64,000 nucleotides of DNA from the NCBI RefSeq assembly GCF_022627955.1, contig NZ_JABXGD010000003.1, positions 248,001-312,000 on the forward strand, written 5' to 3'. Of this stretch, positions 19,692 to 25,973 are shown one piece after another. A program made the position numbers and the translations under genes. Numbering within the stretch: position 1 is the stretch's first letter; every line of letters starts with the position of its first letter. This DNA is from Microbacterium sp. C5A9. Its GTDB lineage: Bacteria; Actinomycetota; Actinomycetes; Actinomycetales; Microbacteriaceae. A model generated the notes under the pieces. That model was not told where the DNA came from, searched no databases, and saw nothing but the letters and a program-made list of their open reading frames with translations.

Positions 19692-22370
19692 CTAGCCCGC
19701 CGGAGTGAGCACGAGGGTCTGTCGTGCCGCGGCATCCACCGCCTTCGTCGACGACGCCCACGGCCGCTGTGTTCCGGCCGCCCAGTCGGGGGTCTGGTCG
19801 ATGTAGTGCTCGTGGAAGGCGTGCCCCGATGCGCCCGTGAGGTGGATCCAGGTCGACTGATCGAAGTCGGCCAGGTCGACGACCATGCGCATCGAGGGAA
19901 CCGTGGTCGTCGCATACGAGGTTCCGAGCTCCCAGCCGGTGGCGTTGACGACAGAGGCGCCGCCGCCGACCGCATACGGTCCGCGGTTGAAGAGCGCTTC
20001 GATCGGTGCGATCCCCGAGGATCCGAGTGTGTCGCTCGTGAGGGTGATCGCGTGCAGGTCGCCCCACCGCCAGGCATCGACGTTCGTGCCCTGGAGCGCG
20101 GACAGCTCGTCGTACGCCTCTTCGGCCGAGAGCGCGAGCATCTCGTCTCTGTTGGTGACGCCGAGCTGCGGGTTGGCCCACAGCCGGTTCGACGGGTCGT
20201 CGAGCAGCGCGGACACCACTGTGAACAGGCGCCCCTGGCCGCCGATGGGCAGCGGCTCGTCACGTTCGGCGAACATGTTCTGCACCAGGTTCGACCACAG
20301 CACGTTCGCGTACGCGGCCGGTGCGGACGATGCCGTGTTCTGGGCGTCCCAGGTGCGGAGCAGTTCGACGGCGTCCTCGACGCCCGCGCCGTCGACCTCC
20401 ACGCCGTCGAGCGCCGAGGTCAGTCGCTTGCCGATCCACATCTCACTGTCCATCTGGATGTCGCGCATGTCCTGCGCGGTCAGCGGCGCCGCAGCCGCGC
20501 GTCGTTCGATCAGGTCGACGACGCGGTCGGCGCGATAGCCGTAGTCCCAGTCCTTCGTGAGGAAGTAGGCGTAGTCGTCGGTCACGATCGCGTTGTTCGC
20601 GGTCACGATGTACCCCGAGGCGGGGTTGTACGACACCGGCAGCTCTTCGAACGGGATGAAGCCCGTCCAGTCGTAGGAGCTGTCCCAGCCGGGCTGCGGC
20701 AGCCAGCCGTCTCCGGCACCGCGCACCGGAAGGCGCCCGGGTGCCTGGTAGCCGATGTTGCCCTCGACGTCGGCGTAGATCAGGTTCTGCGCCGGCACGT
20801 CGAACAGCGATGCCGCCCGGCGGAAGTCGTCGAAGTCCTGCGCGGTCGACAGCGCGAAGATCGCGGTGGCGCTGGTACCGGGATCCAGCGCGGTCCACCG
20901 CAGGCTCAGCGCGTACTCGGATTCCTCGCCGCCGGGCGGCGTCGGCGCCGCTACCGCGCCCGCGGCCGCGAGGCCGGGCTCGGGATCGTCGGCGATGGCG
21001 GTGAAGTCGTCGGTGAGGCCCGAGATGATCGGCCCGTGCACGGTCGACCTGATCGTCAGCTCGATGTCGTCGCCGCCGGCGACCTCGATCGTCTCGGTGC
21101 TGGTCTCGAGCGGCACCAGGGCGCCGTCGCGCCAGTACTGGTCGCCTTCGATGCGCTCGACGTAGAGGTCGGTGACGTCGGTCGTGAGGTTGGTGAATCC
21201 CCACGCGACCTGGCGGTTGTGACCGATCACGATGCCGGGGAGGCCGGAGAACGAGAAGCCGCCCACGTCGAACGGGCACGCGGCGGAGACCTCGGAGCAT
21301 TTCAGCTGCACCTGATACCAGACCGAGGGGAGGGATGCGCCGAGGTGCGGGTCGTTCGCCAGCAGCGGTTTGCCCGTCTCGGTGAGGTCGCCCGAGACGA
21401 CCCACGAGTTCGAGCCGATGCCCTCGCCGACATCGCCGACCAGCAGACTGGCGGCCTCGATGACATCGGATGCCTCACGCCAGTCGATCGTCGTGACGGC
21501 CTGCTGCATCTCGGCGCCGTCGTCGTCGCTCGAGAAGGCCGCCGGCTCGGCGTCGGTGCCGAGGGCGGGGACGCGGGAGATCTCGGGGACGATGACCGGA
21601 TTCTCGTCGAACGGATATGCGGGGTAGAGCTCGTCGAGGGTCGCGCGCGTGGTCGCGGCATCCGATCCCTCCGCGAGCTGTGCGGCCAGCAGCGCGCGCT
21701 CGGTCTCGTCCTCGATGTTGGTCCGCAGGTCCCAGGCCATGGCCTTGAGCCAGGCGACGGAGTCGGCGGGCTCCCACGGCTCGGGGGAGTAGTCGGGGTT
21801 CTGCAGGCCGATCACGGCGTATTCGAGCGAGAGCTCGGCGCCCGATCTCGACTGCAGGTAGGCGTTGACGCCCTCGGCGTACGCCTCGTAGTACCCGAGC
21901 GTCACATCGTCCATCGCGGCCACCTCGGCCTCGGCGACCTTGCGCCAGCCGAGCGTGCGCAGGAACGCATCCGTGCCCGCCTGGGACTCGCCGAACATCT
22001 CGGCCACCCGCCCCGCCGTGACGTGCCGGCGGAAGTCCATCTCGAAGAATCGGTCCTGCGCGTGCACGAACCCCTGCGCGTAGAAGAGGTCGTCGGTCGA
22101 ATCGGCGGTGATGGTCGGCACGCCGAGCGCATCGCGCTGCACCGTGACCTCGGCCTGCAGCCCGTCGAGCGCGACCTCGCCCTCGGTCTGCGGGAAGGAT
22201 CGCTGGATCGTCCACGTCACGAAGAACGCGGCGGCGACCGCGATCACGACGACGGCCGCCACGACGACGAAGGCGATCCGACCGATGCGGGCGGCGAGCG
22301 GACGGCGCGGAGCGTCGTCGTGCGGGCGGTGCGGAACGTCGACGATATCCGTCGGACCAGCTGTCATCAT
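19692..22370 (-). CDS. Penicillin-acylase-family Ntn hydrolase
   Basis: This is an 892-residue precursor. A basic and Pro-rich start is followed by one membrane segment (about residues 35-57), placing the enzyme outside the membrane. The family cleavage site and nucleophile are seen as GSNSWVVSG, with catalytic Ser320 becoming the beta-chain N-terminus after autoproteolysis. LLANDPHLG follows, as in penicillin G acylases and acyl-homoserine-lactone acylases, and an Asn of the oxyanion hole is likely in the YVTANNAI segment. Such enzymes cleave amide bonds of acylated amines; the acyl preference (beta-lactam, AHL, other) cannot be told. It is monocistronic and converges on the TetR gene. Confidence 0.93.
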   Translation of the reverse strand: MMTAGPTDIVDVPHRPHDDAPRRPLAARIGRIAFVVVAAVVVIAVAAAFFVTWTIQRSFPQTEGEVALDGLQAEVTVQRDALGVPTITADSTDDLFYAQGFVHAQDRFFEMDFRRHVTAGRVAEMFGESQAGTDAFLRTLGWRKVAEAEVAAMDDVTLGYYEAYAEGVNAYLQSRSGAELSLEYAVIGLQNPDYSPEPWEPADSVAWLKAMAWDLRTNIEDETERALLAAQLAEGSDAATTRATLDELYPAYPFDENPVIVPEISRVPALGTDAEPAAFSSDDDGAEMQQAVTTIDWREASDVIEAASLLVGDVGEGIGSNSWVVSGDLTETGKPLLANDPHLGASLPSVWYQVQLKCSEVSAACPFDVGGFSFSGLPGIVIGHNRQVAWGFTNLTTDVTDLYVERIEGDQYWRDGALVPLETSTETIEVAGGDDIELTIRSTVHGPIISGLTDDFTAIADDPEPGLAAAGAVAAPTPPGGEESEYALSLRWTALDPGTSATAIFALSTAQDFDDFRRAASLFDVPAQNLIYADVEGNIGYQAPGRLPVRGAGDGWLPQPGWDSSYDWTGFIPFEELPVSYNPASGYIVTANNAIVTDDYAYFLTKDWDYGYRADRVVDLIERRAAAAPLTAQDMRDIQMDSEMWIGKRLTSALDGVEVDGAGVEDAVELLRTWDAQNTASSAPAAYANVLWSNLVQNMFAERDEPLPIGGQGRLFTVVSALLDDPSNRLWANPQLGVTNRDEMLALSAEEAYDELSALQGTNVDAWRWGDLHAITLTSDTLGSSGIAPIEALFNRGPYAVGGGASVVNATGWELGTSYATTTVPSMRMVVDLADFDQSTWIHLTGASGHAFHEHYIDQTPDWAAGTQRPWASSTKAVDAAARQTLVLTPAG

Positions 22371-22515: not shown

Positions 22516-24351
22516 TCACCCGATCAGGCTCGGCTGCAGATCACGCAGGGTGCGCCGATGGGTCATGCGCGTCACGCCGATGGCGGCGAGCGTCAAGGCG
22601 CCCACGAGCCACATGCCCAGCACCGCGAGATCCCAGCCCGCTCGGGCGAGATCTCCCCCGTACATGAGCTGGCGCATCGCATCGACGACGTAGCCGAGGG
22701 GCAGCACATGGTGCAGCGCGGCGAGGGGCGCCGGGAGGGTCTGCCAGGGGAAGGTGCCGCCGGCCGTCACCAGCTGCAGGACCATGAGCACCAGGCCGAC
22801 GAACTGCCCGACGGACCCGAGCCAGACGTTGAGGGCGAGGATGATCGCCGCGAACGTGGCAGACGCCACGATCATCACCCCGAGAGTGCCGATCGGATTG
22901 TCGAACGTGAATCCGAGCGTGATGGCGAGGATGCCCATGAGGCCCAGCATCTGCACGGCGCCGAGCATGGCGGGGGTCAGCCACCCCGCGAGCGTGACGC
23001 GGATCGGCGAGTGGAGCGCGGTGACCGCACGCCGGGAGATGGGCTTGACGATGAGGAACAGGGCGTAGATGCCGATCCAGGCCGACAGCGCCGCGAAGAA
23101 CGGGGCGAGGCCCGCGCCGTAGTCCTCGGCCGAGGCGACCTTGTCGCTCGAGACCTTCACGGGGTCGGCGATCGTGTCGGCCTGCTGGGAACGGAGCTCG
23201 GGAGTGGATGCCGGGATCGCGTCGACGCCGTTCGACAGCCCGTCACGCAGCTCGGCCGTGCCGCTCGCGAGAGTGCCGAGCCCGTCGCGCAGCTGCGCGG
23301 CGCCGTCATTGGCCGAGGCCGCACCGGCCGCCACCGTGCCCGCACCCGACGCCAGCTGCGAGGCGCCGGATGCCACGGCGGCGGCCCCGTCGGCGAGCTG
23401 GTCGACCTTGCCGACCGCGCTCTGCACCGTCGCATTGCCGTCCTGCAGGCGTGAGGCGAGGGGGTCGAGCGTCGCGAGAACCTCGTCGATCTGCTCCGGG
23501 GTGAGGCCCCGCTCGGTGAGCACGCTCGAGATGTCGGTGCGCACCTGCGGCAGAGCATCCGTCGCCTGCTGCACGACCGAGCCCGCGCGATCGGCGATGT
23601 CCGCCAGCTGGCGGTTGCCGTCGCTGACCTGCTGCGCACCCGAGGCGAGGGTGTTGGCGCCCTCGGCGAGCTGCGCCGTGCCGGCCGCGAGCTGCGCGGT
23701 GCCGTCGGCCAATGTCGTGCTGCCGGACGACGCGGTGTTGGCGCCGTCGGTCAGCTGGGTCGCGCCGTCTGTCGCCTCGATGAGCTTGTCGCGCACGTCG
23801 CTGAGACCGGTGAGCAGCCGCTCGGCGGCCTGCGTGCCCACGGTCTGCGCGACCGAGCTGCGGATCTTCTCGACCGCCTGCGTGCCCATCGACGACGCGA
23901 GATAGTTGTTCGCGTCGTTGGTCTCGAGCTCGATGCGCGCCTGATGCGGGTCGTCGCCCGCGGCCGAGGTGAGCGCCGCCGAGAAGTCGGCGGGGATCGT
24001 CACCGTGAAGTCCACGGTGCCCTGGCGCAGAGCATCCGCCGCCTCGTCGACGCTCATGCGCTGCCAGTCGAAGGCGTTGCCCTCGATGAGGTTGTCGGCC
24101 ACGTCCTCGCCGTAGTTGACGGTCTCGCCGGTCGGAGCGTCCGTCCCCGTGGTGGGTTCGGGCGCCCCCTGGTCGTCGACGACCAGGGCGACAGGCACCT
24201 CGGGGAACTTCGCGTACGGGTCCTGATTGGCCCACAAGTACAGGCCGCCGTAGAGGATCGGCACGCACACCAGCGCGATCAGCGCGATCACGCCCATCTT
24301 GCTGGCGGTCAGTCGCCGCAGCTCGGCAGCGATCATGGCGGGAACCTTCAT
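22516..24351 (-). CDS. YhgE/Pip-domain membrane protein
   Basis: The protein has 611 residues. One N-terminal helix (about 17-38) is followed by a long outside region with repeated Ala/Gly-Leu-Ala-Ser-Gly patterns (ANTLASGAQQVSDG, AAAVASGASQLASG), then about six C-terminal membrane helices (about 400-600). This is the architecture of YhgE and the phage-infection protein Pip, related to ABC-2 permeases and MmpL-like ESX-linked EsaA. Its partner upstream is a degenerate ABC ATPase, overlapping by 4 bp. The role may be transport or envelope remodelling; family function is poorly defined. Confidence 0.92.
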   Translation of the reverse strand: MKVPAMIAAELRRLTASKMGVIALIALVCVPILYGGLYLWANQDPYAKFPEVPVALVVDDQGAPEPTTGTDAPTGETVNYGEDVADNLIEGNAFDWQRMSVDEAADALRQGTVDFTVTIPADFSAALTSAAGDDPHQARIELETNDANNYLASSMGTQAVEKIRSSVAQTVGTQAAERLLTGLSDVRDKLIEATDGATQLTDGANTASSGSTTLADGTAQLAAGTAQLAEGANTLASGAQQVSDGNRQLADIADRAGSVVQQATDALPQVRTDISSVLTERGLTPEQIDEVLATLDPLASRLQDGNATVQSAVGKVDQLADGAAAVASGASQLASGAGTVAAGAASANDGAAQLRDGLGTLASGTAELRDGLSNGVDAIPASTPELRSQQADTIADPVKVSSDKVASAEDYGAGLAPFFAALSAWIGIYALFLIVKPISRRAVTALHSPIRVTLAGWLTPAMLGAVQMLGLMGILAITLGFTFDNPIGTLGVMIVASATFAAIILALNVWLGSVGQFVGLVLMVLQLVTAGGTFPWQTLPAPLAALHHVLPLGYVVDAMRQLMYGGDLARAGWDLAVLGMWLVGALTLAAIGVTRMTHRRTLRDLQPSLIG

Positions 24352-25154
24352 CGGTCGGCTCCGTTCTCGGTGGTGTCTGCTGCGGGGGTGTCTGTGTCAG
24401 GTGCGGGGGTGTCTGTGTCAGGTGCGGGGGTGTCTGTGTCAGGCTCGGGTTCCGGCTCGGGTTCCTGCTCGGGCTCCGACTCCGGTTCCTGCTCCGGCTC
24501 CTGCTCCGGTGCGGCGAGCACGAGCGGCTCGATCGGACCCGAGGCGTTGATCGCCTCGAGCTCGTGCATCCGCTCGAGGGCGACGGCCGCCGAGCCGCCG
24601 ACGATGACGAGCATCGCGTAGCCGCGGTCGGCGAACTCCGACGCGATGCGCCACCAGCCGTCGGGGCTGCCGCCGTGCCTGTCGGGTGTCACCAGCACGA
24701 CGGCCTGGGTGCCCTCGCGCAGCACCGCGAGCTCGCACATGATGCGCACGCGGGCGGCGGGGTCGACGTTGCCGATCGGCACGCCGGCCAGCTCGCCGAA
24801 GCCGAGCTGGGTGAGCCACCGTCGCGCGTGCAGGGGCGTCGCGCCGAGGCCCGCGAACATGAGCTCCTCGCCGACGACTCCGGCGAGGGTGATATCGGGA
24901 TGCGGATCGCTGACGTCGGGGGCGTCGACGAGCGCGACGGTGCGGCGCAGCTTCCGGTTGTCGGCCGTGCCGTCGATCGTGACGCGTCCGGTCTCGGGCT
25001 TCATGCGTCCGCTCGCGATCAGCCCGAGCACGGTCGGACGCTGCTCGGTCTCGGCGATCGCGAAGCGCACGGCGCCGGTGTGGAACTCCAGGCTCATGGC
25101 CGGAAGCGCCTGGCCGCCCTTGCCCTTGCTGACGTCGTGGAGGGTGATCCTCAT
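24348..25154 (-). CDS. Degenerate ABC ATPase-like protein with acidic repeat tail
   Basis: The 268 residues follow the outline of an ABC ATPase: an N-terminal MRITLHDVSKGKGG strand region, an ATP-site region and a region where signature and Walker B should be. The key motifs are missing. Walker A is replaced by AETEQRPTVLGL with no GxxxxGK[ST], the signature by VDPAARVRIM, and Walker B by VVLVTPDRHGG with no DE. The last 55 residues are Glu/Pro and Thr/Asp/Pro/Ala repeats (PEQEPEQEPE, TDTPAPD). It probably does not hydrolyse ATP and may serve as a structural or regulatory partner of the YhgE/Pip protein. It overlaps both neighbours by 4 bp. Confidence 0.75.
   Translation of the reverse strand: MRITLHDVSKGKGGQALPAMSLEFHTGAVRFAIAETEQRPTVLGLIASGRMKPETGRVTIDGTADNRKLRRTVALVDAPDVSDPHPDITLAGVVGEELMFAGLGATPLHARRWLTQLGFGELAGVPIGNVDPAARVRIMCELAVLREGTQAVVLVTPDRHGGSPDGWWRIASEFADRGYAMLVIVGGSAAVALERMHELEAINASGPIEPLVLAAPEQEPEQEPESEPEQEPEPEPEPDTDTPAPDTDTPAPDTDTPAADTTENGADR
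24374..24443. repeat. 21-bp in-frame minisatellite in the degenerate ABC gene
   Basis: Two exact 21-bp units (24389-24409 and 24410-24430) are flanked by partial units on both sides. They encode a 7-residue TDTPAPD-type repeat in the acidic tail. The period keeps the frame, so copy number can change without loss of the protein. Confidence 0.85.
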
Positions 25155-25768
25155 GCGCCGACCTCCTCGATCAGTTCCGGGTTGGCGGTCAGCAGCGCAT
25201 CTGCTTCGCGCCAGGAGAGTCCGGCGATGCTGAGCAGGGCGCGGACCGCGAGATTCGCCGCGCCGGTGCTCGACGCGTCGGTGCGCGAGACGACCGTGCG
25301 GGCGACCTCTTCGATGAGTCGGGCCAGCGTCGGTGCCGCGAGGTCGGTGCGGAAGCTGCCGTCGTCCTGTCCGCGTCGCACGAGCGCGGCCACGCTGCGG
25401 CGCAGGGGCGCGAGTGCGTCGGCGGTGTGCTCGACGTGCGCCTCGTCGAGCGCGAGCGCGGCGGCGACCTGCACGTGCGCGGCCTCCTGCCAGAGTCGGG
25501 CGGCGAGGCGCGCGAGGGCGATGCGGGCATCGGCGTCCTGCACCGACTCGGCGATCGCGTTGAAGCGCCGTGCGCCGCTGACGATGAGCTCGCGGATCAG
25601 CGCGTCGCGGTCGTCGAAGTGACCGTAGAGGGTGCGGCGCGAGAGGCCGGCGCTGCGAGCGATGACGTCGATCGAGGCGCGGGGGTCGGCGGCCAGCGTC
25701 GCACGGGCCGCGTCGAGGATTCCGGCGCGGTTCTCGACCGAGTCGCGGCGGGGAGCACGGGTTGTCAT
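25151..25768 (-). CDS. TetR-family regulator of the YhgE/Pip operon
   Basis: This 205-residue regulator has its helix-turn-helix near residues 28-56 (SIDVIARSAGLSRRTLYGHFDDRDALI). ATG 25768 is preferred; the frame extends 12 codons further to 25804 but that part overlaps the operator. GGAGG sits only one base from the ATG, so a near-leaderless transcript is possible. It is the first gene of a three-gene operon, and ATGA joins it to the next gene. Confidence 0.9.
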   Translation of the reverse strand: MTTRAPRRDSVENRAGILDAARATLAADPRASIDVIARSAGLSRRTLYGHFDDRDALIRELIVSGARRFNAIAESVQDADARIALARLAARLWQEAAHVQVAAALALDEAHVEHTADALAPLRRSVAALVRRGQDDGSFRTDLAAPTLARLIEEVARTVVSRTDASSTGAANLAVRALLSIAGLSWREADALLTANPELIEEVGA

Positions 25769-25787
25769 GCCTCCATGGTACTTAATA

Positions 25788-25803
25788 TGCACAGCAGTGT
25801 GCA
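25788..25803. promoter_or_regulatory. Operator palindrome TGCACA-GCAG-TGTGCA
   Basis: The dyad is perfect in its 6-bp arms and lies 20 bp upstream of the TetR start, next to a -10-like TATTAA on the minus strand. Autoregulation of the TetR/ABC-like/YhgE operon is the simplest reading. Confidence 0.7.
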
Positions 25804-25973
25804 AGATAGCGGGAGCGATTCCCCGCCTGCCGCGTCATATATCGGCACTTCGCGCGTCTTGAGGGTGGGAGGCGCTCGCCGATGACGTATCCCGGAAGGG
25901 GGAGCAGAGTGATCTCGACGTTCACGGGGGCCACCGGCCTCGCGCCACTGCACGCACCACGGGGTTCTCGGAC

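Follow-up and report, generated by a model that had tools for sequence, protein, structure and literature searches.

An ABC ATPase-like protein without canonical catalytic motifs is encoded next to YhgE/Pip membrane proteins in actinobacteria

The passages of PMC4999554 that deal with the YhgE/Pip domain name the phage infection protein of Enterococcus and, as a relative, EsaA, which acts in type VII secretion. They state that some YhgE/Pip proteins are required for phage infection and describe the domain as one without known function. The part of PMC3924187 on the Pip family places its homologues within the ABC-2 superfamily. Brief mentions elsewhere concern a mutated YhgE in Enterococcus insensitive to ginkgolic acid (PMC8754111) and a YhgE/Pip-like gene of a methanogen that is down-regulated under lauric acid (PMC5816558). 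The name yhgE is also used for a gene of a Lactococcus pilus cluster, which is apparently unrelated (PMC5152845). A description of an ABC-like partner of YhgE was not found among the matches listed from open-licence PMC papers. It is already known that degenerate nucleotide-binding domains (NBDs) exist, and the pairing can be seen in existing annotations. For Arthrobacter and Rhodococcus plasmids, the NCBI product name of the partner refers to an ABC or ATP-binding cassette protein, and for Tsukamurella plasmids to a hypothetical protein. New, with regard to the matches listed, is an NBD-like family that has the full catalytic set in no counted member and is kept with YhgE in actinobacteria.

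Operon structure and predicted folds

The window analyzed here is a stretch of 64,000 nucleotides from Microbacterium sp. C5A9. It contains a three-gene operon with the order TetR regulator, ABC ATPase-like protein (termed pseudo-ABC in the following), and YhgE/Pip membrane protein (Table 1). The pseudo-ABC reading frame overlaps the TetR gene (25151-25154) as well as the YhgE/Pip gene (24348-24351) by ATGA, in agreement with the translational coupling to both neighbors that had been proposed in the initial annotation. For the TetR gene, an ATG near 25768 is a likelier start than the listed TTG. A penicillin acylase-family gene (19692-22370, minus strand) follows yhgE in the window and likewise in many other Microbacterium loci.

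Table 1. Positions of the operon genes and of the protein parts discussed in the text
Feature	Position in the window	Strand	Remarks
Pseudo-ABC protein	24348-25154	-	268 aa, ATG start; ABC NBD-like core and acidic low-complexity tail
NBD-like core, residues 1-206	24537-25154	-	portion that was modelled and is conserved
Former Walker A, residues 34-41, AETEQRPT	25032-25055	-	E35, T36, P40 invariant in alignment A1
Former Walker B/D-loop, residues 151-162, AVVLVTPDRHGG	24669-24704	-	highest mean conservation among the regions compared
Acidic low-complexity tail, including stop codon	24348-24515	-	encoded by tandem repeats; varies across species
YhgE/Pip membrane protein, 611 aa	22516-24351	-	passes the cut-offs of TIGR03061 and TIGR03062; membrane part modelled with an ABCG-like fold
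YhgE loop and short helix, residues 436-446 (helix 440-446)	23014-23046	-	between two membrane helices
YhgE C-terminal tail, residues 600-611	22519-22554	-	contains LQPSLI, an LxPxL-like motif
TetR-family regulator, first gene of the operon	25151-25804	-	listed start TTG at 25804

Sequence searches with the pseudo-ABC protein gave few hints of its nature. It did not reach the gathering cut-off of Pfam ABC_tran (PF00005) and had no match to this profile up to E 1. The ABC matches in the NCBIfam and PDB sequence searches were weak (FtsE E 0.015, CbiO E 0.016, EcfA E 0.52), and in the PDB search they ranked below matches to the low-complexity tail. An AlphaFold model of the core, generated with 36 homologues, had a pLDDT of 84.3 and a pTM of 0.82; the order of its elements was that of an ABC NBD, and its confidence dropped around the segments that correspond to the Q-loop and Walker B. 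Foldseek retrieved 971 PDB chains with this model at E<=0.001, and EcfA, LptB, and the cobalt transporter CbiMQO were the top matches. A second aligner superimposed 190 residues of the core on LptB (Z 15.2, 3.6 A), and the 50 PDB matches listed had Z scores of 12.8-15.2 and were, by their titles, ABC NBDs. The core is thus predicted to have an ABC NBD fold, in agreement with the element order of an ABC ATPase that the initial annotation had ascribed to the protein.

The YhgE of the window scored 167.6 bits with TIGR03061 and 196.6 bits with TIGR03062. The model of the whole protein was weak (pTM 0.44); its membrane part matched ABCG5/G8 with Z 21.4 over 240 residues at 3.4 A, and the highest score among the ABCG and ABCH matches was that to an ABCH transporter (Z 21.6). 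An ABCG-type membrane fold is therefore predicted for YhgE, which is consistent with the suggested likeness to ABC permeases. On account of this predicted fold, an ABC exporter is the apparent ancestor of the pair. The short helix 440-446 sits at the position expected for the coupling helix of ABCG proteins. As judged by eye, most YhgEs that have a partner share a loop of the P[LI]..R[AL] kind at this place.

The acidic tail of the pseudo-ABC protein comprises residues from about 214 to 268 and is encoded by a 21-bp unit present 3.4 times and a 12/24-bp array, as expected from the repeat tail noted before. The shortest tails among the homologues compared have a few residues, the longest about 150. 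When a tail was defined as at least 30 residues with at least 20% D+E, which could be scored for 103 of the 112 partners described below, it was present in 29 of 34 scored partners from the set nearest to the window protein, in 5 of 24 other members of the family, and in 8 of 45 partners outside it. The acidic tail is hypervariable and recurs in several lineages, common in Microbacterium and less frequent elsewhere, but it is not general. The possibility that it is a peculiarity of the window gene alone was rejected, as tails recur across the partner sets. In six loci (L012, L014, L017, L018, L048, L050) the tails contain LRQAQGP- and WVAEPVEA-like stretches, which occur several times in some of them. 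The stretches resemble a dispersed repeat that was copied into the gene and translated.

Occurrence of the gene pair and the C-terminal tail of YhgE

Homologues of the pseudo-ABC protein were found in 98 of 149 Microbacterium genomes and in 138 of 299 Microbacteriaceae genomes, i.e., in 45 of the 85 genera sampled. YhgE of the corresponding class (E<=4e-55) was present in 102 of the 149 Microbacterium genomes: 97 genomes had both genes, one had the pseudo-ABC gene alone, five had YhgE alone, and 46 had neither. The pairing proposed initially turned out to be conserved, as in 94 of the 98 genomes the pseudo-ABC gene lies just before yhgE on the same strand. In the four exceptions, 130 bases separate the gene from the end of its contig (G088), the contig stops inside yhgE (G066, L020), the two genes are on separate contigs (G046), or a YhgE match is absent from an assembly of 650 contigs that is 88% complete (G044). 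Among 118 fetched loci with a pseudo-ABC match, which include duplicates and the window's own genome three times, an adjoining YhgE match was present in 117, and the only locus without it is at a contig end. A TetR match was present in 108 loci; at least two of the ten loci without it (L093, L119) do not cover its place.

At higher taxonomic ranks, searches with TIGR03062 detected YhgE/Pip in 67 of 119 genomes of the order, 28 of 118 of the class, and 57 of 296 of the phylum. Neighborhoods were compared for 159 countable YhgE genes, taken from hand-picked neighborhoods, from family loci fetched via pseudo-ABC, and from plasmid records; L238, L117, and L058 were left out because they had no countable YhgE, and the pseudo-ABC match of L117 is a weak one, second to another in its genome (E 1.8e-6). 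An ABC-like gene lies just upstream in 112 of the 159, a fraction that is inflated by 58 loci that had been fetched via pseudo-ABC itself. For the actinobacterial genes fetched via YhgE the fraction was 54 of 91, with tandem YhgE pairs entering the partnerless count twice. No ABC-like partner was present beside any of ten YhgE genes from plasmid records of Bacillota (7) and Deinococcota (3). These proteins, to which the phage infection protein with its relative EsaA belongs, share the YhgE protein family with the window's neighbor, but, unlike the latter, all ten lack the partner. The earlier statement that YhgE/Pip proteins are without known ATPases thus agrees with these ten plasmid-borne genes, but not with the 54 partnered actinobacterial YhgEs. 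Many YhgEs are without a partner, and therefore the partner is not required for the YhgE family as such.

The partners differ at the position of the P-loop. Ten have the intact pattern; of the others, some have GxxGSGRT (GRT type), some GxxGxGHT (GHT type), and the close kin of the window protein have none of these. Unlinked partners were sought in 16 genomes with a partnerless YhgE: the best match had E 5.1e-27, compared with E<=1.3e-63 for true partners. The search profile represented P-loop and GRT types, the window's own gene was not among its top matches, and an unlinked partner of the RHGG type was excluded for Microbacterium genomes only.

Three other arrangements were observed. Some Microbacterium genomes encode a further YhgE whose partner differs in type from the window protein, either in addition to the window-type pair or in its place (L286-L289); the partner of L286 groups with the GRT clade in the tree. 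Tandem YhgE pairs without an ABC-like partner occur in Microbacterium and other Actinomycetota (L182, L201, L206, L233-L236, L290, L299) and may form heterodimers. In three loci, an MMPL-family permease encoded right before YhgE carries an ABC-like domain at its C-terminus (L207:2328-5234, plus strand; L239:4578-7499, minus strand; L293:1284-5126, plus strand). Pfam MMPL was recognized in all three fusions (E 1.6e-84 or better), and ABC_tran was above cut-off in two of them.

The presence of a partner was compared with that of an LxPxL-like tail at the C-terminus of YhgE, a pattern that was set after tail sequences had been inspected. In the 159 YhgEs, tail and partner were both present in 107 and both absent in 42; five had the partner only and five the tail only, so that 107 of 112 partnered YhgEs have the tail. 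Without the 58 pre-selected loci, the numbers for the remaining 101 YhgEs were 51, 42, 3, and 5, respectively. In a second draw (L282-L299), which was hand-picked and contained several near kin of earlier loci, tail and partner agreed in 19 of 20 genes. Partners without the tail were found in L110, L116, L178, L191, and L207. Three loci of one genus (L226, L227, L291) kept the tail without an adjacent ABC-like gene, and a profile search of these genomes found no strong unlinked partner of the P-loop/GRT type. L219, in which YhgE is split between reading frames, was scored as tail only by its 3′ piece, and the same status of L250 is probably due to chance. A YhgE tree yielded four independent pairs, in about two of which, on average, the tail changed with the partner, never in the opposite direction, which is not significant; with a poorer alignment three independent pairs remained. 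In summary, the association of tail and partner is strong by count, but it corresponds to few independent changes on the tree and does not reach significance there.

Motif loss, newly conserved residues, and phylogeny

The absence of Walker A, signature, and Walker B residues, as initially reported, was confirmed. Instead of the Walker A pattern GxxxxGK[ST] the window protein has AETEQRPT, instead of the signature LSGGQ it has GNVDPAA, and instead of Walker B with the catalytic Glu it has VVLVTPDRHGG. Alignment A1 comprises 37 sequences, for which 36 of 40 fetched loci were used (L068, with a frameshift, L035, L058, and L066 were left out). It has 41 invariant columns, among them E35, T36, P40, D77, P79, P157, R159, H160, G161, and G162. 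Mean conservation, calculated from 28 sequences (27 of the family and one outsider), was 0.656 for the former Walker B/D-loop, 0.598 for the helix after the P-loop, and 0.567 for the Q-loop region. In place of the lost motifs, other residues are conserved, P[DE]RHGG above all. The dN/dS values of the core against 11 relatives were 0.064-0.355, and YhgE had values of 0.025-0.334 in the same 11 comparisons. The pseudo-ABC protein is a maintained protein under purifying selection in its core, and therefore the loss of the motifs is not decay.

The degree of motif loss was quantified for the 112 partners and for 27 ordinary ABC ATPases that these genomes encode. The patterns for Walker A, an SGG signature, Walker B 'DE', and P[DE]R[HR]G were matched by 10, 0, 1, and 65 of the partners, compared with 27, 18, 26, and 0 of the ordinary ATPases; the SGG pattern is weak, as it misses a third of the latter. 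The single 'DE' match (L213) is misplaced and sits ahead of the true Walker B. Homologues with an intact P-loop, for which the initial annotation had suggested a search, thus exist, and all ten belong to the 54 partners fetched via YhgE. Seven of ten partners scanned passed the ABC_tran cut-off, all of them P-loop or GRT types, and two GHT types and one motif-less partner failed it, like the window protein. A comparison of the profile of the window group with that of its P-loop/GRT relatives gave 97.6% over 179 columns. A chance likeness to ABC proteins was rejected on the basis of the ABC_tran matches of the partners, the Foldseek matches, and this profile comparison.

In quick trees without bootstrap, calculated after removal of the motif columns, 43 partners and the window protein formed one clade versus 16 ordinary ABC ATPases (SH-aLRT 98). 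The window protein belonged to a clade of 24 rows (SH-aLRT 99), most of which have P[DE]RHGG and none an intact P-loop. The P-loop and GRT members grouped beside this clade with weak support (84), and therefore the GRT members are not proven intermediates toward the window type. An earlier tree carried motif labels from regular expressions, and its rows labelled 'none' L207, L214, and L221 fell inside the GRT/GKT clade. The simplest reading is that the signature and the catalytic Glu were gone before the family spread and that the P-loop was altered later in more than one branch; in this inferred order, the P-loop would have been lost fully in the close kin of the window protein.

Role of the pseudo-ABC protein and comparison with known systems

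Taken together, the best explanation, to which we assign a probability of about 60%, is that the pseudo-ABC protein descends from an NBD and belongs, as a subunit that does not hydrolyze ATP, to an ABCG-like YhgE complex, in which it would most likely be a structural or gating part. It would dock on the cytoplasmic face of YhgE/Pip, probably with a stoichiometry of 2+2, and the putative docking sites are the coupling helix and the C-terminal LxPxL-like tail of YhgE. In ABC proteins, the Walker B/D-loop and Q-loop-side surfaces touch the membrane domain and the second NBD, and the corresponding surfaces of the pseudo-ABC protein would have been remodelled and conserved. The subunit would presumably not bind ATP in the usual manner, but it could bind a nucleotide in a non-canonical way. 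More tentatively, an ABC exporter may have turned into an ATP-independent machine, in which the ABCG-like YhgE would be driven or gated otherwise, perhaps by the proton motive force via MMPL permeases. Hydrolysis would have been lost first and nucleotide binding later, with GKT, GRT, GHT, and motif-less forms coexisting today, and the newly conserved P[DE]RHGG site would replace the Walker B/D-loop. The fusions to MMPL permeases hint at lipid-like substrates and another energy source.

The conservation maxima also allow for an active nucleotide- or phosphate-handling protein, in which ET...P, R.R, and P[DE]RHGG would form a rebuilt site that powers or gates YhgE. The ranking of the three most conserved regions and the invariant residues at the former P-loop would fit such a site, yet the glycine-rich loop, the Lys, and the catalytic Glu are all absent, and the contact surfaces for the membrane domain and the second NBD coincide with these regions, so that their conservation is explicable without chemistry. 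We regard this reading as unlikely.

It is still less probable that the protein acts with TetR, e.g., in sensing or in co-regulation of the operon, instead of being a subunit. The translational coupling to TetR and the frequent TetR matches would be expected in this case, but YhgE is the steadier neighbor (missing from 1 of 118 loci, compared with 10 for TetR), the tail of YhgE tracks the partner, and in three loci the ABC-like domain forms one protein with an MMPL permease. Equally doubtful is an active exporter whose intact ABC ATPase would be recruited by YhgE from another locus, with the pseudo-ABC protein as the degenerate half of a heterodimer. Known degenerate nucleotide-binding sites retain most of the P-loop, and a second ABC gene is absent from the three-gene operon of the window; both points argue against this arrangement. 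In its favor, the partner profile detects 49 matches at E<=1e-10 in the window genome, and exporters with one degenerate site exist (PMC7756269).

A decaying, functionless ATPase of a former exporter, whose frame survives between translationally coupled genes, would account for the lost catalytic motifs, the hypervariable tail, and the many partnerless YhgEs, but it is highly improbable and was rejected, in view of the invariant columns of A1, the dN/dS values of the core, the P[DE]R[HR]G pattern in more than half of the partners, and the wide occurrence among genera. From the interpretation in the initial annotation, the fold, the pairing, and the descent from an exporter were retained; the term fossil was not, as purifying selection and newly conserved motifs were found instead. 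The regulatory or non-hydrolytic role suggested there is kept as a putative one. Of the two outcomes that would have spoken against that interpretation, a predicted fold other than an ABC NBD and homologues that never adjoin YhgE/Pip genes, neither was observed.

A dedicated NBD-derived partner would place YhgE/Pip among the ABC exporters, and the living forms, from P-loop-bearing to motif-less, would constitute a natural series on how a transporter manages without an ATPase. On YhgE, the loop at the coupling helix and the LxPxL-like tail would be specific candidate contact sites.

Two of the partners, WP_192841599.1 and WP_029257019.1, carry the NCBI labels 'ABC transporter ATP-binding protein' or 'ATP-binding cassette domain-containing protein'; they belong to the same family and occupy the same place before YhgE as the window protein. 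The label extends beyond the P-loop types, as WP_192841599.1 (L218) is without a P-loop. With ABC NBDs such as LptB, EcfA, HrtA, FtsE, and ABCG, the pseudo-ABC protein shares the predicted fold of the whole core, the order of the elements, and a membrane partner in the operon, but it differs from them in lacking Walker A, signature, and Walker B, with P[DE]RHGG conserved instead. Heterodimeric exporters, ABCG5/G8, and Pdr5 likewise retain an NBD that has lost its catalytic residues for structure or gating; in contrast to the operon of the window, which encodes no intact NBD, they keep the other site of the dimer active.
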